Positions 28,389-63,485 of a stretch of DNA of 64,000 nucleotides are shown piece after piece. The first letter of the stretch is position 1; each line of letters begins with the position of its first letter. Both the position numbers and the translations under genes were made by a program. The stretch comes from Apostichopus japonicus (taxonomy: Eukaryota > Echinodermata > Holothuroidea > Aspidochirotida > Stichopodidae), in contig NC_092562.1 in assembly GCF_037975245.1 (NCBI RefSeq), positions 27,643,554-27,707,553 on the forward strand, in the 5' to 3' direction. The notes under the pieces were generated by a model. It was given only the letters and a program-made list of their open reading frames with translations. It did not search any database and was not told the origin of the DNA.

Positions 28389-28737
28389 CACACACAAAAA
28401 CAATCCTTCGAATGTCCCTGATGAACTGATTCTAAAGTTGGAAGTTATACATAATTCTTCTACTAAACATTCCAAAACAGATGAAAATTATTAAAGTTTT
28501 ACGTCATATCATTCTAGTTCATATTACATCTTAGAAACTTGAATAATTTACTCCCAGTTTACCTCTTCGTGTTTGGTCGACAACTGACCCTATAAACTTC
28601 CGATTAAACTAATTCCTAACATTTTTTTCTTTTATATTAGTAATTATCAGATGTGTAAAGGTCAAACTTGAAAAGTAAAGAACATTCGACTAAAAGAAAC
28701 TTGGCTAGAAAAACGAAAATCGCACATCGTTTTGGGA

Positions 28738-28743
28738 TTTAAT
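28738..28743 (-). terminator. Polyadenylation signal candidate
   Basis: The minus strand reads ATTAAA about 118 bases after the stop codon of the lectin exon. No AATAAA is seen in the same interval. Confidence 0.3.
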
Positions 28744-28860
28744 ATTCCGCGAAAACTTGTTTTAAACTTTACTCTAATTTAAACTTAAATAGATTTTCTT
28801 CCTATACCCCGTGATCAGACATTTATAGAGTTAATACGTTTGCTCAAACAGGTCGACTAA

Positions 28861-29063
28861 CTACATGCTGTCAGATGCAACGGCTGGTTTTTCGCAAACG
28901 CCAAACCTAACTTGTTTGTCACTCTGACAAGGTGTGTCGTTCCAAAATCCCAGACGGACGTAGTTGATCTTTACACAATTTTCGTTCCCAAGGCGATTGT
29001 TTGGCTCCCGTTGGCGCCAACAATCAAACACCAGTGACGAGCCGTCCGACCAAATGAAAGTAT
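28861..29063 (-). CDS. Terminal exon: C-type lectin domain, second half
   Basis: It encodes DTFIWSDGSSLVFDCWRQRE followed by PNN, then WNDTPC and FGVCEKP, ending SDSM and TAG. EPN and WND are the calcium/sugar-binding motifs of mannose-type lectins, and all expected cysteines are present. Acceptor CTCGCAAG, phase 1. Confidence 0.88.
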
Positions 29064-32000
29064 CTTGCGAGAAATGATGACAAAAAAAATTGTACAGATG
29101 ATAATCCAGACTCTGAGCCAATTAGGTCATGCCTCCCCCTCCCTCCGTGCAAACTACTGTTCCCTTTTATGCCACCGCCGTGTGATATAAAGGCATGAGT
29201 GACAGGAAACAGGTATCATATGTGCATTCCCCTATACTTGAATTATTAGTTCAACCCCCACACCCACCCCCACCTCAGGCCAACTCAGCAGTTCAGTCCA
29301 CTGACATGATGATTATTCTTAATTCTTGTGAACTCTACCTTCAAATACGTACATCTCGGCCCTTTTATCCACGTTAATTAGTTGGCCTCGCGGGGCTGAG
29401 TAAGAGCCTACGTAGGTGTTCTTGAGGAGTAAAGATTCCGGTTTTGGCCCACTTCAACACGGTGCGACAAGCAATGACGTTGCCAGGGGGCTTTCTGGGG
29501 ATGGTCGTAACACCCATATACTTGGTATTCGGTTCGAAGACCTTAAGTTACACCTGTTGCGAAGCTAGGGGTATTGGTCAGGGGGGGCGATAATGGCCTG
29601 TAGGGGCGCTTTCGACACTATCGAAGCGGAGCGCCACCACAGGTTGGCGCGGAGCGTACAGAATTTTTTTGAGTAAAGATACTCGCTAGATCGCGGGAAA
29701 TGACCCTTTCCGGGCCTTGCTAATTTGCAGATAAATGAAGAATAAATAGGTGTCATCGCCATTTTGTCAGAAAATTACACCAACAAAATGTGACAAATGT
29801 CAATAGGTATTTGAGAGCGCAATAAAATAGTAAATAGTCGCGAATAATTAAAAAGTGGTAAACAGATGAAAGGGGGCCAGTAGTCCATTTGAGTTCGTCA
29901 GGGGGAGGGGCCATCCGCCCCTCTGACTGTTTGGACGCCCCCCTTTCTCTGATTTCTAACATCCGGGATTCGCTTCTGGTTTCTCTTTCAAAGAGTAGGA
30001 TGCGTAGGGAATGATTACTGGATAAGTTCGTTTAAATTCGAGATGCTAAAATAAATATTTCTAAATTCTAGTGCAGCCAAAAACGTATGTTACATCGGCT
30101 TTGGCTGACCTTTAAGGATCACTACTTTCGGCCTCAAATTTGAGCATTCTTGAAAATATGACAGAAAAATGTAAAAAGGTTTTTTAACTTGAAAAAAAAA
30201 CGCTTCGAAGGTGGTAGTGAAATATTCATTGATGTTTGGTAAATAATGAGTGATCATTATATCATTATGTACCATATTTGAGGGTAAAACTACACAGTTA
30301 TAGGGTTACCATACGCCAGGGCTATCGCAGACTTGTACTGTTATTTTTCTCTATCATAGGTAAGCGTCCGAGTTATTTACAAAACTTATACACAAAAAAA
30401 AATACAAAAAAAACCCCGGAATTGTATGTATTTTCGACAAAGTTGAAAATACAACTGAAAACATGGCCGGTGATTTAACTAACTAGGCTGTTCAGTGTGA
30501 GTATTGGAAGTAAATTGACAATAGTATGGAATCACATAACGGTTCTGATCATACAATTGAATCTGGCACCTTTCTTAATATAGGTTTAGGTCAAAATCAT
30601 TTCCCCTTAATTGAACCCCACCCCCTCCAGGGCGGGACAACTTGCCCTCTATTCGTGAGATAAAATATGGTAATCCTCATTGCACAGATTACATGCATAT
30701 GTATAACATGTAAGTTGTAAATGTTTCTCTTACCTTGATCGTCGGGATCTCTGATGGCGCCAATCCATGCTTGCTTCAAGTCTGCTGTATCAGACACAAT
30801 CGTGTTTTCTACTTCTCTTTCGATAATCGCTAAATAACCGCCTTGGTCATTACAACGACTAATGGCTTCGTCGGCAGATATAACAACTTCGCCAGGTAAG
30901 TTAACCTTAAAGTAACACGAACCATCGTAGTACTGTGCACCAGGCGTATCCGGGCAACCTTTTAAGAAACATGTATAAATGTGCAATTATAAAAAAAAGA
31001 ATATGATAACAAACATGATATTTGGGGTATTTTCAAAGTATAATGAACAACAACAATAACAGGGAACCGATAACCGTTTGATAATAAACAAATGATCTAT
31101 TTTACGGTATATCGAAATCGCGATACTTACGGTCGTTATCTACGATATCCACGATGACGGTATCGGTGAGAATGTTGATACGGTGAGATAAGCTATCGCG
31201 ATTAATCTGGACCATAAATTGTTCAACATCTTCCGGTATATCATCATCTCTGAGTTGAAACGGTATATCGAGACTTGTCTCTCCAGCCGGTAGGATGGCA
31301 TGTTTGTAACCCATTTCTTCATGGTGCGCCACCTGATACATATAATCTACTTCATGTCTAGCGTGTGAAGTTGTACCTGTCCATTCTAGATTCACCCGGT
31401 AGGCTGTAGATAGATTCAGTTAATGATAACATATTGACACTGGACTATGATAGCATTTTACAAACAAAAAACACATTTTTGAGATGGTGAGGGCATTCCC
31501 TACCCATACTATTCCATCCGCCTTAATTACACAGTGGTCGTTACTACAATCCTTCTTACGAAAACATATCCCCCTCTCCTTACCCCTACACCCCCCCCCT
31601 TACTAATTCCAAGAAAGAAGCAAAAAACTTTCCATATTTTTGTTGTTGAAAAAGCCACATTTGACTTGAACTATGCCAATAGGAAATAAACACAAACAAT
31701 TAACGGAGGCTAAATTAACATAATTCTTTCTGGAGTTAACTTACGAATAACCAAATCTTCATCGAATGGTTCGTTCACGATTAATGTTAAAACTGCGCTC
31801 CCATCGTCCTCATTTGCGATGACACGGCTGGTACGAAATGACCCGGAATGGTAGCCTATATGGGGATGAAGAACGCAACTATACCTTTATTGTACTGATA
31901 TATGTATGTGAACTAAGTATAAACCCACGATATCACTGATGGAATAAGAGGAGGGGGAGGCAGGGGGTAGATGCACCAAATTCCGATGTATAATACCACA

Positions 32001-33624
32001 AGTACACGGTGATAAAATGTAACGTGATGCCGACAACCGTTATACTACTGACTACATATTGTAGAGCGGGAGCGCATACACATTGCAAACGCCTCACAAA
32101 AAAATAGCAACTGTACATCATTCATCATAAATGACTGCATTACCAGAAATATTGTATATGTGGTGGGATCGGCTACTTATATCGAGCAGACTACTCCCAA
32201 TACTGAAAATGTCTGGCGTCCCTGCTCGGAATACCTTGAGATGATAGTCTTGAAGTACATATTGGTTTCAGATCTAACCCCCCCCCCCCACCCCTACCCC
32301 CTCCATCAAATAGACCATAGAGAGGAGTGGTAGCATTAGTATTTCACTGGGACTCAAGCTGAATCAAGCTCATGTAATTATGTATATAAGGTTAAACGTG
32401 ATAAACGTACAAGATCAGACATAAAACAAACCATAAATAACTAGTCTGGAGCGATCTTGTACAGAAGTCAGACTTCTGAGGCCGAGGAACGCCACTCCCT
32501 TAGAATTTGCCAATCACCCCCCCCCCCCCCACTCCCGCCTCCTCCCCCAACTTTGAAATCCAATGCACGCCACGGGAGTTCCAATTAATTCTTACCCGTC
32601 TCGGAAGTTGCATGCCCCAGTATGTTCACGTCTATGATTTCCAGATATCCATAACCTCCGAGAGATGCTTTTCCTTTCAGCACTTCGCTAATTCTGATCC
32701 GTACTTTACGATAACCATTCTCTGAGCTTCCCTCAACAGCATCATCGTGCAGAGTTACGTTAACGCTGCCGACGTATTTCCCTTCTGGAATAGTCGCTGT
32801 CTCTGGTATCGTGATGTCATCGTGTACAATTAGTCCAACACCGTTGCTGAGCAGCCCTATCAAAATACAGGGAATTAATTAAAAGAATTTACTAATATTG
32901 AATCGAGAATTGATCATTTTGATACTGCCTACAGAAAATGAAACGCTAAATAAAAGGAGGAAAGAATTTGTTTGGGCAACAGAGACTTAACTCAAGGGAA
33001 GGGGGGAGGGGTCAAATTTTCATTGACGAAACGGGAACGGTAAAAATAATTGACAAAACAAGGAGAGCTAATAACCAGCCGACTCGTTTATACGATGATT
33101 TATTACGCTGTGATCTGATCCCAGAAGTTTAACTAATTAGTCATACTAAGCATAGAATGAGATTTCTCTGAACAAGCTAACTTTGATCCAGTTAATTTTA
33201 ATTAAAAAGTCCGTACGTCTTTCCGAACTAGATTTTCGTCTATAACAAAACACGGGCTTGGATATATATGCCACTGTACCGTACTATACAATGTAATACA
33301 AACCATCAAAGTGATAACCGGTTTATAAGATATCAATTGGTAACTGGTTTATAAATACACCAAGTGATAACCGGTTTGTATAACACCAAGTGGCGGTTTT
33401 AATAAACAAACAGGATTGTTACTTAGTTTCATTAACATTGTTTGATTTCTGGAGTGTATAGGTGAACATAATTGGGCATTTAAAGCAGCATTTTGAGTTC
33501 TATCTTGACTTATATATAATTAGCGTCCATAGCCTAGTGGTGTCCATATATAAAGCGGGAGGCCCGGGTTCGAATCCCGGTGGAGGCTGGAAGTTTTTTC
33601 ACTTTTCCAACTCATAACAATTAC

Positions 33625-33699
<75 letters not shown>

Positions 33700-34082
33700 G
33701 CCTCGGTTCAATAACCACAAACTTAGTATCCGCAAAAATAACCCAGGTTTCCCTGTTGCTGAACACTTTAATCTCCCCAATCACAGCTTATCTGACCTCA
33801 AATTTGTCATTCTATACGGCTTCTTCAAAACTGTTCATGAAAGAAGCAACAGGGAACTAAAAACCATCTTACGCCTCAACGCACACAACAATGAGCTCAA
33901 CAGAGATCTCCCAACACCCCCATCATACCATATTGATGGTACCACACATGTAATCATGTAACACTAACCAATAGTAACGTCACGTCCTCGTGGTTCGGTA
34001 ATTTCAAGAAAAAGTTTCGCCGTTTTTTCTTCAGCGTAAATCGTTACTTGTTCCGATTGCCATTGTACGATTGGTTCAAAGC
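28861..34082 (-). CDS. Calx-beta x2 / C-type lectin C-terminus (FREM-like), partial
   Basis: Six exons at 33969-34082, 32596-32856, 31745-31855, 31131-31403, 30734-30958 and 28861-29063, each with good splice sites and all joined in phase 1. They encode about 394 residues: Calx-beta domain 1, Calx-beta domain 2, then a full C-type lectin domain and a stop. This order is that of the C-terminal end of FREM1-type extracellular matrix proteins, which act in basement membranes. The first exon begins in phase 1, so an upstream part is missing. No signal peptide or CSPG repeat is visible between here and the Tie-like copy B. It could be a gene fragment, the end of a gene with distant 5' exons, or the 3' end of a fusion with copy B. 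Confidence 0.8.
29064..30733. other. Intron within lectin domain
   Basis: 1.67 kb, containing a reverse copy of the dispersed R1 repeat and otherwise no recognisable sequence. Confidence 0.6.
29570..29945 (-). repeat. Dispersed repeat family R1, copy 4
   Basis: The reverse complement matches 11235-11640, including GTCATTTCCCGCGATC, CGCCAACCTGTGGTGGCGCT and a GGGGGCGGATGG-like segment near its outer end. It lies in the intron of the lectin gene. Confidence 0.78.
30734..30958 (-). CDS. Exon: C-type lectin domain, first half
   Basis: It encodes CPDTPGAQYYDGSCYFKVNL, then SADEAISRCNDQGGYLAIIE and WIGAIRDPDDQ. The WIGA motif and the paired N-terminal cysteines define a long-form C-type lectin fold. 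Phase 1-1, 225 bp, donor GTAAGAG. Confidence 0.88.
31131..31403 (-). CDS. Exon: Calx-beta domain 2, second half
   Basis: It encodes YRVNLEWTGTTSHARHEVDY, then DIPFQLRDDDIPEDVEQFMV and TVIVDIVDND. The D-E-FxVxI...I.DND pattern is the end of a Calx-beta fold, whose acidic loop binds calcium. Phase 1-1, donor GTAAGT. Confidence 0.85.
31745..31855 (-). CDS. Exon: Calx-beta domain 2, first half
   Basis: It encodes YHSGSFRTSRVIANEDDGSA followed by VLTLIVNEPFDEDLVI, the first strands of a Calx-beta domain, 111 bp in phase 1-1. Acceptor ATATAG and donor GTAAGT are good. Too short to appear as a long reading frame on its own. Confidence 0.8.
32596..32856 (-). CDS. Exon: Calx-beta domain 1, second half
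   Basis: It encodes LLSNGVGLIVHDDITIPETA, then GSVNVTLHDDAVEGSSENGY and VRIRISEVLKGK. The acidic HDDAVEG and the following strands fit a Calx-beta fold. 261 bp, phase 1-1, acceptor TTTTGATAG and donor GTAAGA. Confidence 0.78.
32857..33520. other. Intron between Calx-beta 1 exons
   Basis: It contains a local AGTGATAACCGGTTTAT-like direct repeat (33310-33400). No coding sequence. Confidence 0.5.
33523..33587 (+). repeat. tRNA-derived SINE head
   Basis: A box (TAGCCTAGTGG, 33530-33540) and a perfect B box (GGTTCGAATCC, 33567-33577) occur in tRNA-like spacing. The ends GCGTCCA and TGGAGGC pair at six of seven positions and the T arm is perfect. The stretch between D and T arms is too short for a proper anticodon arm, so it is not a working tRNA. 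A body of about 40 bases and a (TA)n tail follow. Confidence 0.65.
33628..33696. repeat. (TA)n microsatellite
   Basis: About 34 uninterrupted TA units; likely the tail of the adjacent SINE. Long reading frames across it are artefacts. Confidence 0.95.
33697..33963 (+). mobile_element. Retroelement endonuclease C-terminus (Penelope-like)
   Basis: An open frame without a start reads RPRFNNHKLSIRKNNPGFPV, then AEHFNLPNHSLSDLKFVILY and ERSNRELKTILRLNAHNNEL, ending GTTHVIM and TAA. The NNHK...PVAxHFN..NHS..D....R..RE pattern is that of the GIY-YIG endonuclease end of Penelope-like elements. 5' truncated by the TA tract. Recent enough to have no stop over 88 codons. Confidence 0.6.
33969..34082 (-). 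CDS. Exon: Calx-beta domain 1, first half
   Basis: It encodes FEPIVQWQSEQVTIYAEEKT followed by LFLEITEPRGRDVTI, a typical Calx-beta opening. Acceptor ATTCCACAG and donor GTTAGT, phase 1-1, 114 bp. This is the most 5' FREM-like exon seen; the Penelope-like fragment abuts its donor side. Confidence 0.8.
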
Positions 34083-34404
34083 CTGTGGAATATTATGGTA
34101 ACAGAAATGTCAAACATATGAATGTTTTTAACATTTTGGTCCTATTTTTACGTATTACGCAACCAGTAATACCACTCTGTACTGTCCATGTCATGCTTTA
34201 AAAACTTTTATTCACAGCACGAACAGTACTAACCTTTATCTGATAGAGGAATAATAGAGAACTCACATTGTTCATATAATGCTAGTACGAGTGCTTGAAA
34301 GCCCTGCCGGTAGACATTAATATGTCGCACTTTGTCGATAAACGTTAGCCAAGACATTCAGTCGCCAAGCCCCCACCCCTCTCCCTATCCTACGCTACCC
34401 TCCA
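34083..34404. other. Sequence upstream of first Calx-beta exon
   Basis: No exon, promoter motif or repeat recognised. Confidence 0.4.
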
Positions 34405-34725
34405 TAGGATAAGCGCGTAGCCAGGAATTTGCCAAGGAAGGGGCGAAAATGTAGGCAAACTATCAGAGCCGCAAATACGGCATTGCAAACTATCTAATCG
34501 TAGCGCCACCATATGGCGCAAAGCGTACACGAAAATTTTTGCTGAAATGCCTCCCAGATCGCTGGAAATGGCACTTCTCAGGCCTTGTGAGTTGCATCTT
34601 AGCATTTTTTCTTTTGAAATTACTAGCGATATCATAAAAACATTAAAAAAGAAAATTAAAAATATGCTCAAGGGGGGGGGGGCGGCTGCCCTCTTCGCCC
34701 CTCCCCCCTTCGCTACGCGCCTGCC
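34405..34725 (-). repeat. Dispersed repeat family R1, copy 5
   Basis: The reverse complement carries GTGCCATTTCCAGCGATCTG and TGGTGGCGCTACGATTAGAT, as in the other members. The ends are near GCGCGTAGCCAGG and GCTACGCGCCTG, which are inverted. It contains a G10 run. Confidence 0.75.
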
Positions 34726-36280
34726 AGAGGAACAGTCAAACACTGCAGATTTCAGATATGCAATATCCTGTCACCGGAAATACCTACTTACTTACCAAAA
34801 AGTGTATAATGTGTGTAATCTACTATGAATTAACCTTGTTTTCTTAAATCATAAAAGAAGGGAACTCAACACATGAACCTTCTAGCCATTTTGTTAAAAT
34901 ACATCTTTTCTTTTAGTCCATACATATATTATTGTTCAGTTTTTAGCAGAGAAAGAGCTATAGAATTGCTCTTTGTTAATCTAAGCTTAGCTTAGCTTAA
35001 CAGTTGTATGAGTACAGAAGGCTTGGGTAGTTTGAGAATGCTATAAATTGCTCAAAGTGTCCAAGGGATCCTATTATCTGCGCTAATAGATGTGACATAT
35101 TTTCTTTACAATGAATTAGCAAATTCATGTTGGCTAGTTTAGAGCAAACACCTCGCTCTGAGCTGAAATATCATGCTGTGAGAGTCACATGTTTTATATG
35201 TGTTTCTCTTGATAAGGCGCCTGATTTAATATTCCGTTTCAACACATGGAATGAGATATATTTCACTTATGAAAACCCATATTTGCCTGGGGACCATAAT
35301 GTTGTGAATTTTTAATTCATCGTTGGCAGGAGGTGTGTTCGGAAATGCTTCATGAGGGCAGCTGTTTGATGGCAGTATTGGTATTGGATGCTGCGTGTAT
35401 CACTGCAGTTGTTCCACTGGCCTTGCCACGGGACGTTAAATGTGATATAATTGTAAGTAGAACTTTGTCATGAAACCTTTATTTACAGTAAACATTATTT
35501 GGTTGAATATCGTAAGCTGCTGTAAAACAATGTTAAAAGGATGCAAATTCAGCCATCACTTCGAATATCATACTTTAAGCAAGTTCATGCAGTCTTATTT
35601 TGAATTATATTATGAAGGAGGGTTCTTAAATTTCTATGAATTCAGATATGTTACTTCCATGCATGCATTATTTGTGGCACGTATGTGTTAAATTCACACC
35701 TATTTAACAATCTGAATAAGTATAACAATATTGTGAAACACTGTCTTACACAATCTGTAAGTTTACTTTAAGTTCTCTTCTTAGAGAAATCAGTTGATTT
35801 TATTTTATTACTCATAAGCAGTAAATTACTCTACCATTTAGATATAATTTCAATATTGAGATGAAAATGATTCATATGCTAATAGCATTGTCAGAAACTT
35901 GGTGTTTTAGACTTTTAAGATGACAAAATAAAATAATAATCTCTAACAATATTGCCACTGAGAATTCACACTAAAACGAAGCATGTTGCATCTGAGTAGT
36001 CCCTGTTTGAATTGTAAAATTACGTTGTCTTAAATTAAGACAAATAATTGATGTTTCTTTAGATTTAAGTGTTATTTCCTTTAGAAAAATTATACAGCGT
36101 ATCCACATATTGTAACTTTGACACACTTTTGTGATTGAACAAACAGGGAGTAGCGAACCAAGAAGTATAAGAGGGATTAATAATTAACCCTTCACAAATA
36201 AACATACAGCAGGAAATTCTCTATGACTATGTTATGAAACATAGCATTTCAAGATATTGTAATACAGACATTTTTTTTTG
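34726..36280. other. Spacer between FREM-like exons and copy B block
   Basis: AT-rich, no recognisable coding sequence. If copy B continued into more FN3, transmembrane or kinase exons they should lie here or in the next interval, and I see none. Confidence 0.5.
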
Positions 36281-38187
36281 ATGCCATATGCAATCAGCAA
36301 CACTCAAAGGGATTGTTCACAAACATGAAGTGAGTTTTGACACAAAGTATTTTAATAATGAAAGAATGATATTTGAAGTGTGTTATGTCAAGCAGAGTTG
36401 CAAATACTTACCTTATTTTAGTACAGATAGTGTGAATTGTAATGACATGTTGCAACTAAACCTTATCATAACAGGACTTATCTTGAGGATTTTCATAGCA
36501 CAAAACGTAAGTAGTGATAATGACTGAAAGTGAGATTTACAGAGTCTGTTACTACACTTACGTATGTTAGCTTGTTGGAATGCTAAAAGACTATGTACAA
36601 ACTGAAACTTAACTACTCGAGTGGTGTTTTTTGTTTGGTTTCAAAGAAATGTAGACAACAAAATGTGCGAAATATCAACATCTCCATCATTCAGACAATA
36701 CATAATTATCTTTCACTATTCAAATCAATTAATTGTTGTTTGATTTTGCAGAAAGTTCACACCATACTTCTTTCTCGTACTTAATACTTTTGAAATAGTA
36801 TTTCTTATCTGCTTAATCAGTCATCCAAACTGTAGTTTTGAGAAGATATGTTGTCCACATTTCGTGAAGTTATTATCCTTATATTAAATTCAAAATGGTA
36901 CGTTAGAGGAGGGACGGAACGAACGCATTCTGAATGAAAAATGAAGACATAAACTTATAAGTAAATCAATCTTGGCATGTAACCCAGAGGACAATGGTTC
37001 AAATCCAAGTTTAGCCCTCAATTTTTTTTTTCCTGCGTCTAAAATTTACCAGTCAAGTTTTCAATATCCAATTACTATAAAGTGATATTAATTAAACATA
37101 TGCCATTGGTTCAAATACTACTCTAGTTACACTTATATTTGCTCTTTTTGAATAAAGCTTCCTTCATTACAGTAAATTAAATAATCTGGAAATCATGACC
37201 CACCATGTGACATTTTGAGTACACATTTTACAACACCATATTAAACCACACATAAGAACACCCAGTAAGTGTGTGAGCAAGTGCGTTGGGTGGGTCAATT
37301 ATTTATAGTACCTATATTGTTAATGGGTAGGACTAGGGGATGAAAGGAAGGGTGCCATATGGGCTGTTGGGAATATATTAGCAGATTTTCAGCTGAGGAG
37401 TTACTTATTAATATAGAAAAAAAGATACAGACTATGACACAGTTCGTATCACCAGGAAGCCGACTCCGTCGCCATCACGTTTGTCTGTTCCTGATGACAT
37501 GGATATTATACACAGGCAGAGAAGGATTACAACTTTAGAGATACTCTGTGTATAACTTGATCATCTCCAATAAACTGTTAAATATCACATTGAGTTAATG
37601 ATGCTCCAAACAATTTCGCCGAACAAGAGCTCTTCTTGCCAATATCTGTGTTGTATATGTAATACACTGCCAACAATGCACAAGTGATCATCATGCAAGA
37701 GTTTAGTGTTGTGTTTCGTGCAATATAATACTGAAAGCATAATAAGTCATGTAAAGATCACTAAATCAACAAGCATCTTACACAAATGGTCATGTGTCTT
37801 AGTACAACAATTTGTTTTACATTCTTTGACCACAAGTCCGGTCTGGACACACATCTGACATGTCTCATGCATGGTTTAATTACTAGGAACGCATCGTGGA
37901 ACTTATCTTGCTGGATTTACTTTCATGTTGCTTTCATTTTCTACTATTGACATGATTTTAATTCAAATTATCAGCTTATTAGTTATTAGTTATTTGTAAC
38001 CAACCGCCGTTCTTTGCTATATCATGAATCTTGAACCCAAATCAGACACTGAATATAAATATGTTTCAAAGAATAAACACAGCATTATTTCCTTGAGTCT
38101 CTAAAACTACATATCAATGACTGAACATAAAGAAGTGCTATATTTAACAGGACATAGCTAATGTAAATCTTGGACAATTGCAGTCAC
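36281..38187. other. Left flank of copy B block
   Basis: Homologous to about 200-1492 in copy A. About 810 bp (36917-37725) are absent from copy A and include a B-box-like GGTTCAAATCC (about 36990), suggesting a SINE-containing insertion. No exon recognised. Confidence 0.55.
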
Positions 38188-38419
38188 CTGTTATGAGGTG
38201 AAATATTGTTTGTGATTTACTGCTTTCTCCTCCAGCAGTGGTAATTGACAACTGAAAGGTGTATTCTCCTTCTTCTAATGAGACGTTTAACGTGTAGGAG
38301 GTATTACTGACATCTATGATCACCTCTGACACTTCACTTCCTCGTTCCATGTTATTTGAGTAGTATAAGGTCATCTGAGTTACACCAGAACTGCATTTAA
38401 TATCCTGACTTGATGGCAT
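38188..38419 (-). CDS. Copy B exon: FN3-2, second half
   Basis: It enters in phase 0 after TTTTATTTTAG and leaves in phase 1 at GTGACTG. It encodes [20 protein letters not shown], then [20 protein letters not shown] and [10 protein letters not shown]. Last Tie-like exon recognised in copy B. Confidence 0.88.
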
Positions 38420-41400
38420 CTAAAATAAAATTGCTTAACTATCTGAAATGATCGATTGACAAAACTACTGTTAATATAACTGCTTGATTGAAACAGGTAA
38501 CTGCTTTTAATTTTACTCTTTTCAAGAGGTAATTTCTCAACAGCATTGTTCCTCATTAAGCATGATGGTAATAAATTAGTTACCCAAAAATATGCTACTG
38601 ATGACCTCTGACCTACTTACATATATTGTTAATTTTGCCTCTTGACAAACTTATATAATTTAAGCCAAAACTGATGGAATTCTCAAAAGAGCCAACAGGA
38701 GAGATGCAGGTTGCATCATTCATTCTTTTAACTGCTGATACGTATGTGATCTTTGATATACTGTTCCTGTGCACTTTCTTTCATCTCACTACTAACTGAT
38801 GTATTTTATCAAATTCGGTGAAACACCTCTGTGAAGAGAACATCATATTGCAGTCATATTCACATATCCAACCTACAAGCTCAATATTTGTCACATGAGG
38901 GCAGGTTTCGGTTTAGGCAACGAACTGACAAGGGAAAGCATTACATATTGAACACGCAACATAAACAATCAAAAAATACACTGACATGAAGATTACTTCA
39001 TGCAGTATGAATTGTTTTTCTAAAGGAAACAAACGATTTTAATTTGACAAACCTGCCAGGATATGGTAAGCCGATCTTTTTCCCCTTTAAACGTTACCAG
39101 TTCCAAATTGTTAGGACTACCTGGAACTATGAGTAGAATATGAGATATTCTCATCAGTAACACTAGAACAGGATCATTAATCCAGCAAATCTTGTGTGGA
39201 ATTAAAATTTGTTATATGATCTGTATTAAAATACAGGAATTGGGAATTTAGCAGGCAAGCAACTCCTTACAAGCAGCACAAAGTTAAATAAAATGTATTT
39301 AAAATAACTTTCATTGTCAATTGAACATCCAACTGAGGTTCTGTTTAGACTATGGACCCTAAATCTGTAAATATTACCAAATACTTGGACTAAGCTTGTA
39401 TAGGTATGTTAGTACAGTGATCATAAAGGTGGCCATTGTATAGCGATGAATTTCTACTGATATCAGATTGTATTTCCTCAAGACCGATTACTGTTGGTTT
39501 CCTACATGTGCTAAGCGGTGACAGATTGCTGTTGTCATATGCACAAACAAGAATCCCAACGTATGTAATTAGTTACATCCAGCTGCAATGGAACCCAATA
39601 TATTACAAAGGTCAAGTGACAATGTCCATATTTCTTTGCAGTCATAATATGAAAGTCTGTTTTGTTTGCTTACCTATTGTATATCTAAGCGAGGAACAGC
39701 AGGAAACAAAATAAACGAATTGTCAACATATAAAAACCAACTTGAAAGTAAAAGCACTGCAACAGCAGGTACAACGTATTTGCATTCATATATTGCAGTG
39801 ATCAGTAATGTTTTGCATTCTCAAAATCATCTTGAATACCTGTACAAGTGGTTTTAACAACCCGTTCTGGACTCTTTGGACCTTCTTTATTCCCTTCTAT
39901 AACTACAGATACACTAAATGAGTAGTTTGTATCTGGAGTGAGGTCACTGAAGGTAAAATTGAGGGTCTGTACAGGATCCGAGCTACCGGGTATCCACTCC
40001 GTGGCTGAAGAATTCTTATGGTATGGCATGTAACCAATGACTGGTTGGTTCCTTGCATTGGTGTCCCCATCCCAGGCTGACCAGCTGATGGTTATTGATA
40101 AACTCCCTTTTATCACTTCTTCTGGAGCAGAGGTTAGAAGGGCTACAAGTAAATATATCAAAACACTTCATAAGGCACCCATGTGCTACATAATATTTAT
40201 ACTGCCAGCAGTTCATTATAGTTGAGAACCAGGCATGTAATAACATGGGTCAAAATAGATACGAACTATACAGATATACTGCTACACACTATAGCTACAT
40301 TTGGATTTATTTGTGGGAACAACAGCAGCTAATAACTGAAGAATAAGAGTAATTGATATTATTGATAATATTTTAGATAATATTAATGCAAATGTGCAAT
40401 AGTATTTCCTTATTCTACAATTGCAACAATTCAAGTTACCTTCCTGACAAATACTCCCTGTCCATCCACTCGTACAATCTGTTGTACCTCCTGTACAGGT
40501 TCCTGTAAATCTGTCACATTCTCCCGACTGACAATGACAGGTATTATCACAGTTGGCTCCAAATGTTCTTGCACCACACTCTGATGTCAGAAAGAAGGTT
40601 TATCGGTAATGAAATATCTTTCCATAGAAATGAAATACTTTAATCTTATCAACTAAAACAATGTAAGTATACAAACAGTACGTGAAACTATTTGCATTGA
40701 TAACTAGTGACATTTTTGTTAAAAGAAGCTATACTTTCCAGTAAAGTTATGTTTGCTAACTTACCTTGATGACAACTACTGCCTCTCCATCCACTCATAC
40801 AGTCTGGTGTACTTCCTGTACAGATTCCTGTAAACCTGTCACATTCTCTTGACTGGCAATGACAGGTATCATCACAGTTGGATCCAAATGTTCCTGTACC
40901 ACACACTGATGGCAAAAAAAAAGTTTATCAGTAATGAACATATTTCATAGAAATGCAATACCTGTTAATCTTATCAAGCAAAACAATGTCAGTATACAAA
41001 CTGTATTCAAAACTATTTGCATTTATAACAAGACACAGTTTGATTAAAAGAAGCTACACTTTCCAGTTCAGTTATGTTTGCTAACCTACCTTGATGACAA
41101 CTACTACCTCTCCACCCACTCATACAGTCTGTTGTACGTCCTGTACAGGTTCCTGTAAATCTGTCACATTCTCCTGACTGACAATGACAGGTATTATCAC
41201 AGTTGGCTCCAAATGTTCTTGCACCACACTCTGATGGTAAAAAGAAAGTTTATCGGTAATGACATATCTATCCATTAAAATGAAATACTTTAATCTTATC
41301 AACCAAAACAATATAAGCATAAAAACAGTATGTGAAACTATTTGCATTGATAAGAAGTGACATTTTTATTAAAATAAACTACACTTTCCAGTTCAGTTAT

Positions 41401-46777: not shown

Positions 46778-46810
<33 letters not shown>

Positions 46811-49800: not shown

Positions 49801-52800
49801 CAACAACAATAACAACCAATAACACCAATAACGAAGGCGTGAAACCATCATTCCCACACCAACCGGACAAAGGGACACTCCAGCAAAAGGTGTTGCATAA
49901 TCCTGATGGCTTTACAGCCCACACAGGGACAAATCCCATAACCTAATCGCCACCTGACTAAGCGAAAATGGTTAGTGATGAGGACCCCATGTACAATCCT
50001 CCTCGCCAAGTCCCGGAGACGGCTATCTAGTGACTTACAACACACAGACCACCACACATCTGGAGAGATTTGGCAAGCCGACGGGCACACAGGCGCGAGC
50101 ATTGAACATAACACAGAGGGGGCCACGTTCAACAGAACATCGGGCACACCCTCCTCTTTGATTCTACAAAGTGAGTCACCAATCTGAGTATACACCCCGA
50201 AGGGCGTTTCGCCTTTGGCCGGTTATTGGAAAAGGATCCGGGTCAGTAGTGGCGAAAAAGAAACCCACCCCAGAACCTAACAAAAAAGGCAAACGAGGGA
50301 TTCTCAAACGCAACGAAAAAACCTTTCAAAAGTAGGAAGCGCAGTTAAGATGGTAGGTGGACCAAACCATGCCCACCTGCTCAAGGGGGTCTTTTACAGA
50401 ACGGTCCTTTTGAAACGGTTTGGTTTGCACTTTCCCCAAATGAAATAAAAAATGATCCTCTCCAATCGCACCAAGGCATAATCCGGTGCAGCGATCACCG
50501 TTCCAGGATACCAAAGGAGAGGAACAATAAAACGATTGACAACTGTAACCTTCCCAGGGAGGGAGAGTCACCTCCGATTGAATGTGTCGAGCCTTGCCTC
50601 CACCTGATCAGCCTTCTCGGCCCAAGTGGTGGCCTCCGGGGCACCATAACCTAGCCAGATGCCGATTACCCTGATCATGACATCTGTCCAAGTAGCATCG
50701 AACGGGAGGGATTGGTTACGCCTACCTCCTGAACGCAGCCCTTTGGTCTTGGACTTGTTAAGTCTGGCACCAGTAGCCTCTTGGAAGGTGGCCAAAAGCT
50801 TCGATAAAGGCTTGAAGGAGATGAGGTCCGACACAATACAAGTGACGTCATCGGCATATTGCACGCATTTAACTCTAGCCCCGCCCGGTGCATTGAAAGG
50901 CCGAAACCCCAAGCATCTGTCCTGCGAGGTACTGAGCGTTTCGCTGAAGAGAACATACAACAACGGGGAGAGGGGACAAACCTGACGGACTCCCCTTCGA
51001 ACCGGGAAGGGACCAGAAGTAAGTTCGTTAACAGTGACCATGCTCGTGACGTCCATATATAGTAACGAGACCCAACGAATAAACACTGAGTTCAATCCGA
51101 AGGACACGCACAGCGCAAGTCTGGAGAGGACCTACAATATCCGGCATCACATCCGCTAAGCGATTTCCTAATGCTTTGGCCAGGATTTTGTAGTCCCGAT
51201 TTAACAGCGTTTTTGCACGCCTATTAGGGTCTAAGGGTCTTCCGACTTGGGGAATATTTCCAGCCCTCTGTGTTTGGCTCATGTAATTCAACTGGAAAGC
51301 GGTAGCGAACACGTCTCTAAAGTCCCCACCGAGAACCTCCCAGAAGGTCCTATAGAACTCAGCAGGGAGGCCATCGGGACCGGGGACTTTCCCTTCTTCA
51401 TCGCTGCTACCGCTGTCCAGAGCTCACCAACGGAGAGATTCGAACCCAAGCTATCGTTTTACTATGAGGGGGGGGGGGGCTTGTCTATACCAGACAACAA
51501 GTCTTCCTGGAGATCCTCGCTAACAGTAGCCCTGGAGTACAGGTTCGAAAAGACTACTTAAATACCTCAGATGCCTAGTGACCTGCTTAGCGTGTGTTGT
51601 TCGCACAATTGATGTTGTGTTTATGAAGGGTGCACAATCGTACAAATTCTCTCAATGAGTCGGTATTCACATCTGGTCAGTTTTCCCTCAGGTTACCGTA
51701 TTATATAGTTGACTCAATGTAATCAGTCTTACATGACACTCGTAACTCCCATATAATAACGGGCTTTGCGACAGTGTCTATCCACGGTCGATCACACCTC
51801 AAAGTTCCCCAATAAGTCCTAAGTGGCTTCCTGAACCAAACTGACACAATTAGAATACCAGCCATAACATATAATCAGGGTGCTAGCCCGGTTTCATTTA
51901 CACGTTTGAGGATGGAAGGTTTGATGGTCCCGATCAGAAAAGGGCACAGGGGTCTGGGGAATGAATATATATGAAATTTCCTTCTTTTCCAGGGGGCCAT
52001 CTTGAATTCTTGCCGCCATCTTGGAATTGGGTGGCCCAAGCAATATACCATGACCATCATCTGTTTCAGTGAGCTCGGAAACACCTTAATTGACCACTCA
52101 TTTGTTCATCTCCGATTTTTACAGCCAGATATATGACATTTCCTTTTTCTCTGGCGGCCATCTTGGATTTTGGTCGCCATCTTGGAAGTGGGTTACTCAA
52201 GCAACATGCCATGATCATCATCTGTTTCAGTGACCCCGGAAACACCTGAATTGACCACTCATTTGTTCATCTCCGATTTCTACAGCCAGATATATGACAT
52301 TGCCTTTTTTTCCGGCGGCCATCTTGGATTTTGGCCGCCATCTTGAAAAATCGGAACCGATAAAGTGGGTTCCACGGATAAAATCTATAGATAGGTCGAA
52401 AAGAAACTCCATGCCAAATTTGGTACTTTTGTCCGGCCGGTAACGTTAAAGTTGCTAAGCCACCTGACTAACAGTATGCCAATAACATTTAATGTACACG
52501 TTCAGCAGGAGTCCGCTACATAGACTGTACAAATGCATTAGGGCTACACTGTGACTAGCAATCACAGTGCAGTAGGATGCAGAGTGACTGAAAAGACTGT
52601 CTAGGTTTTGACTATTGTTACCTGCCATGCTGCACGGTATTTGCATGCTAACCTTATTTACACATGGACTTCATATTACTTGATTTTACAAGTTATCATG
52701 TAAGAAGCTATTAAGAACTTATCTCATCTTCTTTAGTGCTGGAACATCACTGATGGTGACATCAAATGGTGACTCAATTGAAATGTCAGTCCACATGCAC

Positions 52801-55800
52801 CACTTATCATGGTATTCACACACATTGGCCGCAGTTAACATTGCCATACATTATTCCAACTATGTACTCACACTTGACAAACATTTTCCAATATCAAGCA
52901 AGGAATAATTCTTCAAAGTAGTCCTGATTGGCAGCTCTAGCTGGAATTGACCTTACATATCTCAGATGAGTAACAATTGATTAAGACAGTTTTAACACTT
53001 GCAAGTAACAAATAACTGGCTGAGGCCCATTATTAAGCATAACGCTATAAACAATCCCTATATTGATGTGCAGTAGTACTCCGAAAAGTTCAATTTTTTT
53101 TCAATTTCAATTCAATTCATAAGACTTTTATTTCAATCTCTTGTATTAAATGTGCAATTTTGACAATAGACGTGGGTAATTGTACAAGAAAACAAGAGAT
53201 ATTCATCCACCTGACCTTTTTTATTGTGGCCCACATTGATCAGTGAAGAGAGTGCAACGACTTAATAAAAAGAAAAACAGCTATGCACTGACAGTTGACC
53301 TCCTTTAAAAGACAAAAGGGTCCTTGCACTAGTTTCATATACACATAAAGCATGAACCTCATCAAAATTTTCAATTCTGGAGAGACTGTGCTCAAAATGC
53401 TTTTTTACTCTGATCTCTGTTGACCTCAATTAATCTTCAACCTCCATAAAATAATAGTCCTTGTACTCACAACAGTGGAACCAGATACCCAATATGAAGA
53501 CCATGCAAGGTTTGCTTTTGGAGTTATCATATTTACAAAAAGTTGTATAGACTTTCACGTATGTTAAAATTTAGCATGTAGAGTTCCGCTTTATTGTACT
53601 AATGCAGGTATGTTTCCAGATATAGTACAGTATACAGTACAGTGTGACCAGTAAACCTCTATGTAATAGCTATCAGGTGAAGGATAATGTTCCATCGTTT
53701 TGCAACAAAATTAATTAGGAAAACTTCTTCTATTAATTTCATTATTTGGTCTTGTTATGCATGAGTAACTTTGTATAATAATTAATTGTCCATAGTGATG
53801 TAAAAAAATGAAATACGCATAGAGTACATACAGGCGGAGAAATTGTTATTTGCTCTCGTGTTGTATGCACGACCCTACACAACACAACTTAAATGCAATT
53901 GTAGTAGATTTTTCAACTACAAACTTCTCTTGCACAGTCCTGATACAGATTTTCAGCCACTCTATTATGTTAGGTCACTGTCAGTGATAAAAATGACAAA
54001 ATATGTTTTATTTGGATATTTCGGAATGTTAAGTAAAATTGCAATTCATCAATACTTTCAAGTAAGTCTTCTGATGGAAGACAGTAGGTACTGTACTCAT
54101 TTAACAAATCACAGCTAGTGAAATATTATTTGTGCAGTACTGCACAGTATGTCCGAGACCTACTACTCTCCCCAACCCCCCACCCTTCTACAAGTACTGA
54201 AAATTAAAAATTCCTAAAAAACTTACAACAGTGCTTGTGACTACTAGTAAGAAGGTCATGCAAAGAATTGCTCAAATTGTGTTAGAGGGAAGAACTAGCC
54301 ACTCCTTGTTTTCAACGTTACATTTGTTTTGGATGTTACATATGTTGATAGTAATCGTTTACGTTGATTATGGACAAGACAAAAATAATTCAACCAAAAC
54401 TTATTAAGTTTTAGTTCATTCACACCTCACATCTTGTAAGCAATCTTGTTTCTGCCAAATATGGGTACTTTGGTTATTATAATTTCGGATGTTAAAAAAA
54501 TGTTGAAAGAATATGAGAATTTATTTTATTTTCTCATATTTATCTACATGGGTCAAATCACCAAATTTGAAAAAAAAATCGTAGTTTAACCGTTCTAAAA
54601 ATAACCACCATCCTTGCATGATCAGAACACAATAAAAAAAGCGTACTGTACAAATATCAGTTGCAATGCTTCAAAAATTTTCCGATTTATGAATGTTTGA
54701 ATTTGACAAATTGGCGGTCAGGTAAAATGTTGGCAATTTCTTCATGTTTGAGGTCCTTTTTCTCAGCAATTGAACATCCCACTATTCTCTTATTACAAAC
54801 ATATAGAACCTGCCTCATGATATATCATGAGGACTTAAATTGATCCACCGACTAACATAACGTTAGTCCATCTGGTGCCTCTACCGACTAACATAGCCTT
54901 AGTCAGTTGCTATACCGACTAATTTATTCCTTAGTCAGTTGGATTTCTTAGTCGGTCATCTTAGTCCGTCAGCTTAGTCGATCAACAATATCTTAGTCGG
55001 TAAATGTATATTAGTCAGTTACATTAGTTGGTGACATTAGTCGGTCTTTACCGACTAATTTATATGAGCCACCGACTAGTTTATAGCAGGTTTTACATTA
55101 GTCAGGATGGTGCCTCTCCCGACTAACCTTTCTTAGTCGGTATCGATTGACTAGTTGCACTGACTAGAATCACTGAAAGAATTAAACCTGACTAGTTTCT
55201 CTGACTAGAATCACTGAAAGAAAAGAGAGTAGAAGAAACACAAATAATGTGTACGTTGGCAATATTTATTCCTGATAAAACTTCTGATGTCTACAAAAGC
55301 TGACTTTCGACAGATGGAGAAAAAACCACTGTAAACAAAAATCTGAAAATATCATTTTATTCCAACAAAGTTAAGACAAGTTAATGGATCAAACATGAAT
55401 CGCAAAAGTATAGTACTGCACAATAATGCAAAGTTGAATCTTGGGCAAGAGTTCCTCACGACTTTCGTTCTAAAGTGGTACCCCAAATCAACACCAGTTA
55501 AGTCTTCACGAACAAAGAGTGTTTCTCTTAACCTCAAATGGCCTCCCACTTGTCTTCAGGAAGCCAAAAATCTGCACCATTATTGACCTGTGAACAGAAA
55601 ATATGATAAACGTGTAAGCACAGATACAGATATAGCACATGATAACTCACATTATCATAAACATACATTTACATTAAAATTTTATAACATATTGGGTTTC
55701 AACTGGTTAAATCATGAGCTGACCTAGATCAATAAGGGGAGGGGCATTTTGGGGGTCTATTGGCAGGGGTACCCCACTAATATTAATTACTGGAAATGCC

Positions 55801-58800
55801 CATCCCTTACATATAGAGTCCTGCCAATCAATTTCCAATAGTTTTCAATTGGATACTTCATGAGCTGACCTAGGTCAATGAGGGAAGGGGAATTTTGGGG
55901 GTCTACTGGCAGGAGTACCCCGCTAATAGAAATTACTGGAAGTGCCCATCCCTTACATATAGAATCCTGTCAATCATTTTCCAGTAGTTTTCAACTGGTT
56001 ACCTCATGAGCTGACCTAGATCAATGAGGGGAGTGGCATTTTGGGGGTCTACTGGCAGGGGTACCCCACTAATATAAATTACTGGAAATGCCCATCCCTT
56101 ACATATAGAGTCCTGCCAATCATTTTCCAGTAGTTTTCAACTGGTTACCTCATGAGCTGACCTGGGTCAAGAAGGGGATGGGCATTTTGGGGGTCTACTG
56201 GCAGGGGTACCCCACTAATATAAATTACTGGAAATGCCCATCCCTTACATATGAAGTGATACCTATCATTTTCCAGTAGGTTTCAACTGGTTACCTCATG
56301 AGCTGACCTGGGTCAAGGAGGGGATGGGCATTTTGGGGGTCTACTGGCAGGGGTACCCCACTAATATATATTTCTGGAAATGCCCATCCCTTACATATGA
56401 AGTGATACCTATCATTTTCCAGTAGGTTTCAAGTGGTTACCTCATGAGCTGACCTGGGTCAAGAAGGGGATGGGCATTTTGGGGGTCTACTGGCAGGGGT
56501 AACCCACCAATAAAAATTACTGGCAATGCCCATCCCTTGTATCTGAAGTCCTAACCAATATTTTCCAGTAGGTTTCAAATGGTTACTTCATGAGCTGACC
56601 TAGGTCAGCCGTGAGGGGTCAATTATTGATCACTGGCAGGTGTACCCCACCACCAATAATTACTGGCGATGGCCATTTGTTGCTCTTGGGGCCATACCTG
56701 ACACATTGTTCTTACTTTGATGTGGTTACCAAGAAAGCTGATCTAGGTTAGCTATTAGGTGACTTTAAAATTGCTCTCCCAGCCACACCCACCACAGTCG
56801 GTTGCCAGTCGTCTGGTTTCATATACAGGAATGCATTGTGAACATTGTGATGTACCAGGCAATTGGTTACCTTCCCAGCTAACCAAACCCTCTGGACTCC
56901 CGCTTTACAGATCAGTAAAAATTTGACCAAACTTATGAAGCTTGCACGTAAATGATATACCAGACTGTTTTTTTTTTTAAAGCAGGTTATGAAAAGTATC
57001 TTAAATATCATTAAACAGTTGGGTACAATAGTTAAACTCACTCTTCCATCTTTTTTCTCTATGGTACTTGTTCCTTTGCTTTTTGGACTCTCGGATAAAC
57101 TCTTTTGTTCTGCGAAGGGTACCAATATATCATCTTAAAACATGTCTTTAAGCCATACACAGTTCTCCTCTTCCATTGTTGCCTCCACACTGGTGTCGTA
57201 CATCACAGGAAACCTCACCCTTGACTTGGATATTTGGCTTTTCAATTCTTCCTGGAAAAAAGAAACAGCAAAGTATTCATCATTTGAAAAAAAAATTAAA
57301 TAAAGTTGTCACCATAAAGTTATGTGAGATTTGCTTCCACTATAGTATCAAAAAAAAATCCCAAAGTTTGAAGCAGACTGTATAAAGCTGAAAAGAATCA
57401 AATGCCCAGAATACAGAGATAATAAAGCATGGGCTAAATCTTTGTTTGTTTTTATGATCTTTAACAAAATAAAATTTTAGAAACACAAATGCACTCAGCC
57501 AACTTATTTATAGGCCTAATCGTTTTTAGTTGTTATTTCGCTTGCTCACATAACAAGCCTGTTTAGACCTAGGCTAGAGAAGAATCAGTACTTTGTTACA
57601 CTAAGTTTGTCTTTCGGTCGTTTTGATTTAGTCTTACTAGTAGTACTAAAGTATATAATGGACCGGCGAAGACTAGAGAATACCCAGAGTTTTAGTACCT
57701 GCGTTAAACTTTATGATCTGATCTATTATTTACGTCAATGAGTTTCATTCAATCTGGGATCAAACAAAAAAGAGAAAACTTATTAATCTTAACCATTAAA
57801 CTTTGCTACTATACCCTCATAATCTACGAATCGATGCATATACATATATACATAAACAGAATAATTTGAATTCACGCAAGTGAACCCTGCACTACATTGG
57901 ACAGAAAAAAAAACGTGCAATTAGACCAAACTAAACATACTAAATTTTCCGTGACTTCTACATAAAATATCAATACAAATACAACAACTTACTCTTTTGG
58001 CAGTATACTAAAAGCACACGTTATAATAACTTCAGACTATCAAGCTTTCCTGAGAAAAAACGGTTAATACTTCTTACAGTAAACAAATCGACCGTGAAGG
58101 AATGTCGTAATTGTTTCCTGGGTGTGACCGGAAATTAAATACTAAAAAATGATAAATGAAAAGGTTAAATAGATATGAAGCGTGCATCCTGACTGCTCGC
58201 AACATATAATACCGGTGACTAGCCAACATAATTTGTTCAGCCTACTGTGACTGTAAGTTTCAAGGTCTAGCCTTGCTTATTCAATATCACATAGCCTACC
58301 CATTTATATTCACATGGGAAATTACAGGAAATTTTTACCAAATGAGTGTAGACTTCAAATAAACTACTGGTCCCAGCATAAATTAGAAGTTTATGTGCCA
58401 CTGTTCAATCTAGCCCAATACACACATAACATATTGTTAATTGGTGTTTAGAATGCACACTTTGGTGTTGAAAAGTCACTGCAGTACCCAGTAGAAGCCT
58501 ATAGGCTACTCACTGTCATTGCACTTGTGTATTGCGAAACGCCAGTAACAAGGTAAGTTTCAAGGTCTAGCCTTGCTTATTCAATATCACATAGCCTACC
58601 CATTTATATTCACATGGGAAATTACAGGAAATCTTTACCAAATGAGTGTAGACTTCAAATAAACTACTGGTCCCAGCATAAATTAGAAGTTTATGTGCCA
58701 CTGTTCAATCTAGCCCAATACACACATAACATATTGTTAATTGGTGTTTAGAATGCACACTTTGGTGTTGAAAATTCACTGCAGTACCCAGTAGAAGCCT

Positions 58801-61800
58801 ATAGGCTACTCACTGTCATTGCACTTGTGTATTGCGAAACGCCAGTAACACTAACCATAATACAGTACTAGTGCCAGTGGCCTAACAATTAACTTTAATT
58901 TTACCTTCAATTTAAAGGAATAACAGGTAGGCCGATGATGACAGTTAATACTTCCATTCTTCTAAAGACCTTCTTGGGTGATTTACGGTTGAAAGTTGCT
59001 TAGAGTGATCGTATGAAACTATGCAAAGCCCAGCAAGCTGCCGTTGCCTCTCGGTTTCGAAATTGAATTGAATCGAATTGAGTTAAAATACATTAGTCCG
59101 TCGACACCGACTAAGCTACGATTATGGCGTAAATCGGGTGTCCGTATCGTTCTTATTCCATTGGTTAAAATACCTTCGTCCGTCGCCACCGACTAAGCTG
59201 CGATTAAATATTCCTTAGTCAGTGTAAACTGACTAGGAAGCAGTGATGAAACGAAGATTTTTGCTAGTTCGTGTGCATTGACTAACGTTACAAACTAATT
59301 TAACGTTAGTCCGTTGCAATATTGACTAGTTTATTTTTTCAGTGTAAAGTTACTTACAATTGATGAAATTTCAATAAAAAAAACATGTGTCATTTTGTTT
59401 TATTAACTGCTCCTAGCCTACTAAGGTATTGCTTCAGATTACCTAAGTTATGTTACCATATGTTGTCAGGCTGATACGGTACTTGTTTTCAATCAATGTG
59501 ACAATTCCTAATTTTATGCTAATGACAATGGAAACTTGTCTTCTGAAATTTCAAATTTCCGGAATGGACTAGTCCTTGGTGGAAAAAACATTGTTTACCA
59601 GGAGCTATCACAGTCCAAACAGACTCTGATAAATATTAACATGACTATAGCAGTAGGGATTGCCACCAAAGTAAGGACACAACAGTTTAGTTCATGATAG
59701 AGGGCAACGCTTGCAAACCTCAAGTCGTGGATTGAAATTATGTTTAAGCAATATCCTTTGTTTAAAATTCTCTTTGCCAGTTTGTTTACAGTTTGTTTAC
59801 AATATTGCAGTCAGTGTTCTGTTATTCCTTTCCTTTACATACAAAATAAGTATCATTATAATTTCCAAGACAGATGATAGTCTGTAAGATAAAAGTTCTT
59901 TACCTCTCACTATCAGTATCTGTATGCCATGCTTTGCTTGATCTCTCAATCGATTACGAAAACATCCATAGATGGCAGCATCATCACTTTGTATATCGTG
60001 TGCAATCCTGTAAGTGAGACTTCCACGCTGACTACTATCTGTGTTATCATCTTTAAGCCAACTGGGAGCATGTGTATCATCATATCTTCCAATTTGAGTC
60101 ATCCTTATATGAACATCACGGTCACCAAAAGCCACAGTTTTTGAAAATAATCCATCATGTGGAGTGAAATGAGCTGCAAAGGGAAAGGTAAATTGACCAA
60201 AATAAATTCACACAAAACTACATCCTGGAATAGAAAAACATGTTTCTGTTTATTTTCACCCAATGACAAATATCGTGATCCATATGCAGTCCATACAGTA
60301 GCTCACCTAATAACATCTTAATAGAAAAAGAGAGTAAAGAGACAACGATGATACTTACATAGTTTAATTACCATAACAAACTTTATTAGAAATTATCTCC
60401 ATGAGTCGTGTTATTAACAACTATTGTACTAGTTTGGTGTGCATTACAGGGTCTACCGATCATCAGAAAATCATTGAAAATCTCAATTTTAAATTATTAA
60501 TTCTTCACAAAATTTAGCACTGTTTCAAGCAGATATAAACGAAGTTTGCAGAAGACTTACCATCTGATCTCATGAATACTCCTGTTACTTCAGTGTTTCT
60601 TCTTCCTTGCTTTCTTGCTCTACATCCAAACACACCAAAATCATTATTGTTATTGTTGTCCAATGTAACTTTCCAGTGTGGGTAAGTACCAGATGTTCTT
60701 ATTGGATCTGTAGGGTCAGGATTTAGGTCAGGACTTCTAATATTCCTTGTATCTACTGCTCTGAATGACTCCACTATAGCTCCTTCATGTCCATCACTCA
60801 AATAACACTGATATTCTGTGTTGGGTCCGTCCGAGTTAAAATGTCCCTTCAGTAACATCGTCATCCTCACTTGTTCTATTGTAGAAAGTGAAACAACCAT
60901 ACCTTGTAAGAAGCTATGATGATATATATTAATATCTGATCCAAAGTCAGACTCACGAAGCAATCACAAAGGTCAAATCACATATATATTCATGTAGAGA
61001 AGATGCGAATACTGTGATCAGCGAAAACGTATAGCTTAAATAAAGGTGCTTGTGAGCAACAATATCACTTTTTAACACTTAATACACAATGATAAATTAG
61101 ACCTTTACCCACCGATGTAAAGTTTTTTTTTTGTGGTTCTTTTAATTACATATTTCGTCACCACATACAAAAGAGTTACATTTAACAGCTAGAATGATAA
61201 ACTGCAATATGCAGACTGTAATCTATACCTTGTTGTCCATTACACAGAAGAAACGGACAAAACAGGAAAGTGCACAGAAAAAGAGCAAAATTGGAACTCA
61301 GTGTGATGGACCTACAGAGGCAAAAAAATTAGATTCACTGAGATTGAAAATCATTGCAAAGATTCACAAAGAGAACACATTGTTATGGGTTAATTAAATA
61401 CAAGATTATACAGCATACATTGAGTATAGAAAGGTGACAAGAGTATGATAGTGTGATGTATAATGCAGATAGTTGTTAGAAATCCTCCACAATATGCTCA
61501 AACATCAAGAAGCATGTGACTGCTAACCTCAATCTTTTATTTTATTTTCATAGTTTAAATGAACTCATAAATATCCAGTTATAGCCTACATAGAACAGAT
61601 TCGTATTATTTAAGTATAAATAACATTTTATATACTGCCTGTGTAATTTGGGATTCATACTGATGAAGCATTATTCCGTTATTCTTAATGTTCATTAAGT
61701 GTTATAGTTTCCATGAATATACAGATATGTTAATGTAGGAAACAAAGAATAGAAGCTAAAACCAATGACTGATACAACTTATAAAGGCACAGACCTTACT

Positions 61801-63485: not shown

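Follow-up and report, generated by a model that had tools for sequence, protein, structure and literature searches.

A putative secreted fusion of a Tie-like ectodomain with a Calx-beta/C-type lectin gene, and a candidate receptor phosphatase with a Tie-like ectodomain, in Apostichopus japonicus

The window analysed here, a stretch of 64,000 nt from Apostichopus japonicus (C2:27643554-27707553; coordinates are those of the window unless C2 is given, and negative ones lie to its left), carries on its minus strand a chain of 22 exons running from 63485 to 28861, in which a receptor-like ectodomain of Tie type stands directly upstream of exons for two Calx-beta domains and a C-type lectin domain. 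Because two complementary halves abut in matching phase, the best single explanation, to which we give a little less than an even chance on the strength of the sequence, is that they are spliced into one secreted Ig-EGF-FN3-Calx-Calx-lectin fusion protein. The original prediction had proposed such a fusion and implied a kinase receptor as its first parent. It is supported in part, as an ectodomain devoid of membrane and signalling exons adjoins, in the same phase, lectin exons that have no clear start, but the kinase parentage is not: in a sister copy (copy C) the same Tie-like kind of ectodomain leads into a transmembrane exon, and tyrosine-phosphatase exons follow downstream.

When rebuilt, the chain measures 3756 nt, or 1252 codons counting the stop, all in a single frame with AG/GT borders and no internal stop codon; length and codon number are as originally predicted, whereas the exons number 22 rather than 21. 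The ectodomain (copy B; all exons on the minus strand) begins with a 26-nt exon holding an ATG and ending in a phase-2 donor, AAAG/GTAATC (63485-63460), followed by a signal-peptide exon (61311-61229), two Ig-like exons (60875-60561 and 60173-59904), two Tie-type EGF exons (48177-48040 and 44957-44808), EGF exons 3 (42717-42580) and 4 (42196-42056), and EGF exons 5-9 (41880-41740, 41555-41415, 41230-41090, 40905-40765 and 40580-40440), which lie in a 325-bp tandem array. It closes with a first FN3 exon (40142-39840) and a second FN3 domain split between a 68-nt half-exon (39120-39053) and a second half-exon, FN2b (38419-38188), the last exon found common to the three copies A, B and C of this ectodomain. 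Compared with Tie2 (2gy5), copy B scores an E-value of 4e-37 over query residues 117-373 of 373, a match that begins at the end of Ig-like exon 1 and takes in the first EGFs. Pfam matched fn3 (9.8e-9) and EGF families and no Ig family in this ectodomain; the Ig-like domains are named by position against Tie2, the second of them lying within the aligned stretch.

The signal-peptide exon of copy B has CTG where copies A and C have ATG; the ancestral start is lost and the ATG of the upstream exon must serve in its place. The stretch of copy A aligned to this first exon contains no ATG, copy A's own ATG sitting in exon 2. The tandem array (40436-41894; 4.5 copies, 90% match) multiplied one EGF exon, and EGF number therefore differs between copies. 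A dead EGF exon with stops (42462-42328) is kept in copies A and B and was itself multiplied in copy A (about 4973-4851, 6783-6652 and 7936-7814). Minus-strand ORFs at 50571-51423, in the large intron of copy B, look by eye like a retroelement reverse transcriptase. A 146-bp repeat of 6.3 copies and a 300-bp repeat, the latter probably recent because its two copies are 99% alike, are present at 55695-56607 and 58253-58850.

What kind of receptor did this ectodomain belong to? Reading the window together with its 80-kb flanks, we find copies B and A inside the window and copy C just outside it. Copy C extends from -13245 to about -57575 (C2:27630308 down to 27585978) including its phosphatase exons; its ectodomain occupies -13245 to -35654 and its transmembrane exon -37118 to -37232, and the frame is open from signal peptide through transmembrane exon (15 exons, 2513 nt, no stop). 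Four of the seven ORFs tested downstream of the ectodomain on the same strand, a set that includes the transmembrane ORF, match PF00102; the matches include two signature-motif exons, and for one phosphatase exon the nearest solved chains are PTPRA (1e-16) and CD45 (2e-16). Because these same-strand ORFs match PF00102, the family of copy C is best read as a probable receptor tyrosine phosphatase with a Tie-like ectodomain, the frame having been joined only from signal peptide to transmembrane exon. In the six frames of the window, which hold seven isolated HRD strings, a complete kinase catalytic-loop motif was not found, nor was a full kinase motif in the readable letters of the window plus 80 kb on each side (224 kb), where two isolated DFG strings were seen. 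On the opposite strand, phosphatase-like ORFs at -78234 to -66884, one with a GVGRTG signature by eye, suggest a second phosphatase gene.

Copy B was thought to be without a transmembrane or kinase exon, and comparison with copy C bears this out for the transmembrane exon: homology between the two ends at 37098 in B and -36762 in C, before the transmembrane exon of C. Judged by alignment with copy C, neither A nor B has a counterpart of that exon, and the region of C downstream of it finds no blastn match beside copy B. Copies A and B have a 3′ flank in common, about 90-92% identical and not found downstream of C, which occupies 34799-36913 on the minus strand beside B and extends to 34794-34799 there and to -4710 beside A. 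Over 13 non-coding blocks, identity between A and B ranges from 75 to 92%, this flank standing at the top of the range; the spread suggests patchy gene conversion. Copy A itself (20158 down to about 1500) looks like a pseudogene. It has lost 5 nt, and with them the frame, at the end of Ig1, its EGF1 donor reads AT instead of GT, FN2a lacks an acceptor in frame, and the EGF exon at 7670-7530 contains a stop, which makes at least four lesions.

The lectin half, also on the minus strand, consists of six exons. L1 (34082-33969) and L2 (32856-32596) encode the two parts of a first Calx-beta domain, L3 (31855-31745) and L4 (31403-31131) those of a second, and L5 (30958-30734) and L6 (29063-28861) those of the C-type lectin domain; L6 carries EPN and WND, which we take to form a mannose-type calcium site, and the stop codon, past which an ATTAAA lies at 28743. 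In this half, Pfam matched Lectin_C (1.3e-14) and the second Calx-beta (2.5e-4, a value under the Pfam cut-off), with no match for the first, and none of the 52 Calx-beta matches of the genome falls at the window lectin locus or at either of its two relatives. The close relative, D (C2:25327130-25332568), has L1-L6; the distant one, E, lies between C2:24671215 and about 24678000, where one search found L2 and L4-L6 and another L1 and L3. The E region (C2:24671215-24681881) also has a signal-peptide-like exon 3.8 kb upstream of L1, and no CSPG repeats nearby. A scan upstream of L1 in E yielded five rows at three places, two of the places in phase 1, and this exon, MTTFRVLMLLCLARFPSSGRAF, was picked by eye as the phase-1 candidate with the best donor. 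The 48 PF16184 (CSPG) matches listed for the genome sit at four other places, none of them close to the window lectin or to either relative, and a FREM1 tail was therefore rejected as the origin of the lectin half.

How did the two halves come together? The lectin exons sit in a segmental duplication, a block (27190-34799, minus strand; at least 7.6 kb, the compared stretch of the relative ending before the block does) that corresponds to C2:25326681-25333999; identity is 79-90% over the matching pieces and 86-87% over the two main ones. Homology between the window copy and D stops abruptly at 34799, where the copy-A-like flank begins. At 34794-34799 there is thus a genomic breakpoint, with flank on one side and lectin block on the other, and the two parent genes that it separates have open phases. 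As the block is cut at 34799, any start that its relative has upstream of that point is missing from the window. Sequence identities suggest that the block is younger than the array of receptor copies: non-coding identity between the window copy and D is 87.1%, as against 67-76% for the spacers between array copies where still alignable and 74-82% for the 5′ flanks of A and B, although the 90-92% of the A-B 3′ flank does not fit this order unless it was converted.

At the proposed joint, FN2b ends in phase 1 at the donor CAG/GTGACT and L1 is entered in phase 1 at the acceptor CCACAG/GC; the rebuilt chain thus agrees with the claim that copy B ends in a phase-1 FN3 exon followed on the same strand by a phase-1 Calx-beta exon at 34082. 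Copy C shows the normal continuation, the same phase-1 donor leading to the transmembrane exon with phosphatase exons downstream. The nearest clear secretory start for L1-L6 is that of copy B, directly upstream, on the same strand, in the same phase, and itself without an end. By itself the phase match carries little weight, because 19 of the 21 introns in the 22-exon model are phase 1; in R3 receptor phosphatases, as described in PMC5336234, FN3 exons lie mostly between phase-1 introns. The FN2b donor reads CAG/GTGAGT in C and CAG/GTGACT in A and B. Scored with a small home-made leave-one-out matrix built from this locus and D, it is the fourth weakest of 20 sites and the L1 acceptor the weakest of 20, and the weakness of both favours the main alternative, namely that these are two separate genes.

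Under this alternative, which we regard as possible but rather doubtful, copy B would encode a soluble Tie-like ectodomain, ending in a terminal exon of its own or by read-through of the FN2b donor into 14 further residues and a stop, and the lectin would have its own first exon. No start or signal peptide had originally been seen for the lectin part. As far as the signal-peptide scan goes this holds, since 34083-38187 yielded two rows, both at a single poor-donor position (37694/37691), against a mean of 1.8 rows in shuffled sequence; the scan missed, however, a candidate first exon at 34357-34234 (minus strand; MSWLTFIDKVRHINVYRQGFQALVLALYEQCEFSIIPLSDK), whose hydrophobic stretch starts at residue 19. 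This exon would be the most likely start for a separate lectin gene: in both the window copy and D it is open, has an ATG preceded by an in-frame stop, and ends in a phase-1 donor. Against it, its best hydrophobic window (2.01, from residue 19) is unlike a classical signal peptide, and the raw difference between the window copy and D, 17 of 90 aligned nt, exceeds the intron rate of 12.9%, L1-L6 differing by about 3.6%. The window version is 33 nt longer than its counterpart in D (25326787), in frame, and 22 gap-free codons show four synonymous and four nonsynonymous differences, numbers too small for a verdict. The exon would also require a new promoter, because only about 106 nt of D sequence upstream of the ATG precede the breakpoint, with a repeat-like insertion there in the window. 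Over 20 kb of relative D the scan gives 11 rows. Of those beyond the block, the closest are at 25325657-25325706; one row, at 25326787, falls inside it, and this in-block candidate has the better donor score. Another ATG, just upstream of L1 (MLKTFICLTFLLP), was rejected, as a stop intervenes before L1.

The end of copy B can be weighed in the same way. In A and B a common flank has taken the place of the membrane end, so that B may have used a different 3′ end prior to the arrival of the lectin, provided that the copies were used, and short open exons that could be terminal do exist in 34083-38187, after acceptors at 36523 and 36929. Yet no special terminal exon stands out in the flank, where A and B are 90-92% identical throughout. 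The candidate first exon inside the block lowers our confidence in the fusion, which nonetheless remains the reading we prefer.

Is the lectin half under selection? Exons of the window copy and D are 95.4-97.3% identical, compared with 87.1% in non-coding sequence; across 395 codons dS is 0.073, dN 0.027 and dN/dS 0.37, and there are no gaps in 1187 coding nt, whereas the 4180 aligned nt of non-coding sequence contain 69 gap runs. On the two branches together 24.5 nonsynonymous changes are seen, where a single neutral branch would be expected to bring about 65 at the intron rate (P 5e-9) or about 34 by the yardstick of dS (P 0.05); a neutral window branch should also have gathered about 10 indels (P 6e-5). 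Relative E, used without L6, polarises eight of the 23 amino-acid differences, placing six on the branch of D and two on that of the window, one of the two being a tyrosine in place of an L3 cysteine kept in D and E. Exon identity, dN/dS and the absent indels together argue that L1-L6 have been maintained as coding exons. Such constraint could also be simulated by gene conversion with D, but conversion should not spare exons only.

These figures weigh on a further alternative, to our minds improbable, in which the lectin block is an unexpressed, neutral neighbour and copy B is going the way of the decayed copy A, the open frame being due to luck and youth. The constraint on the lectin exons relative to introns and their freedom from indels speak against it, albeit with a P of only 0.05 by dS, as does the fact that no frame or splice lesion was found across the 16 exons of copy B, against at least four in A. 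That A is broken and that B has lost the conserved start ATG are what one would expect of decay. Over 545 codons, 24 of which (in the signal-peptide exon) were read in the wrong frame, synonymous and nonsynonymous changes number 21 and 50 on the branch of B, which is near neutral, 16 and 40 on that of A, and 69 and 141 on that of C; the pairwise dN/dS between B and A is 0.51 over 646 codons. With the B branch evolving this fast, dN/dS is no proof of constraint on its ectodomain. A misjoin of the lectin block at 34799 from elsewhere in the assembly would account for the sharp breakpoint and is very improbable, because the window lectin, whose divergence from D is 12.9% outside and about 3.6% within coding sequence, is a distinct copy, and because the published Apostichopus japonicus assembly, as described in PMC10344927, was built with HiFi reads.

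Returning to the spliced fusion, the following course of events would fit the data. Copies B, A and C may stem from an array of receptor tyrosine phosphatases whose ectodomains were Tie-like, and the lineage of A and B would have lost its transmembrane and phosphatase exons, the transmembrane loss being visible in the alignment with C. Later, in an order that we propose from the block and its junction, a segment bearing L1-L6 of a Calx-Calx-lectin gene would have landed downstream of B, and upstream parts of that gene beyond 34799, including a signal-peptide exon if E is a guide, would have been left behind. The last FN3 exon of B would then splice in phase 1 to L1, and the predicted product would comprise two Ig-like, nine EGF, two FN3, two Calx-beta and one mannose-type C-type lectin domain. 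It should be secreted, since the chain provides a signal peptide, includes no transmembrane exon and runs to a stop codon behind the lectin domain. Such a protein could act as a soluble recognition molecule or decoy that combines the binding part of a receptor with a calcium-dependent sugar site; of the roles one might guess at, that of a decoy or an opsonin-like factor suggests itself most readily.

What would this mean? If the exons are spliced as proposed, the locus captures exon shuffling in progress, with two incomplete halves rescuing each other in matching phase, and each half of the proposed fusion has an intact relative on the same chromosome. If true, the result would be a soluble Tie-like lectin able to bind both a receptor ligand and sugars. 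In its fullest form—a young, expressed fusion that has turned a Tie-like receptor phosphatase into a secreted, lectin-tipped recognition protein of the type Ig2-EGF9-FN3(2)-Calx(2)-CTLD, its breakpoint, a broken sister copy and relatives from either parental side still lying on one chromosome—we hold this reading tentatively, as plausible though somewhat short of even. Among open-access titles and abstract openings, with the sea urchin phosphatase survey lying outside that scope, we found neither a Tie-like phosphatase nor a Tie-Calx-lectin protein.

How do the two halves compare with known systems? The lectin half has L1-L6 in common with the Calx-Calx-lectin genes D and E; unlike them, the window block is cut at 34799 and is without their proposed upstream signal-peptide-like exon. 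A Calx-beta region followed by a C-terminal C-type lectin domain is described for FREM1 (CBCP, CTLD group XVII) in PMC514892 and PMC8346017, the former characterizing the FREM1 lectin domain as without calcium-binding residues. The window's lectin half likewise runs from Calx-beta to a C-type lectin domain, but its lectin has EPN and WND and there are no CSPG repeats nearby. With Tie2, the angiopoietin-1 receptor, copy B shares the second Ig-like region, the first EGFs and their order; it differs in having nine EGFs, two FN3 domains and no kinase motif in the readable letters of the window plus 80 kb on each side. Copy C resembles PTPRA and CD45, which are tandem-catalytic receptor phosphatases, in that a transmembrane exon is followed by PF00102 exons, two of them with the signature motif, whereas its ectodomain is Tie-like and copy B lacks both the membrane and the phosphatase part. 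To our knowledge, a Tie-like ectodomain is not among the known ectodomains of receptor tyrosine phosphatases. Copy C may be more surprising than the fusion itself. It places an ectodomain of Tie type before tyrosine phosphatases, and an ectodomain of this kind may thus be wired to remove phosphate, not to add it.
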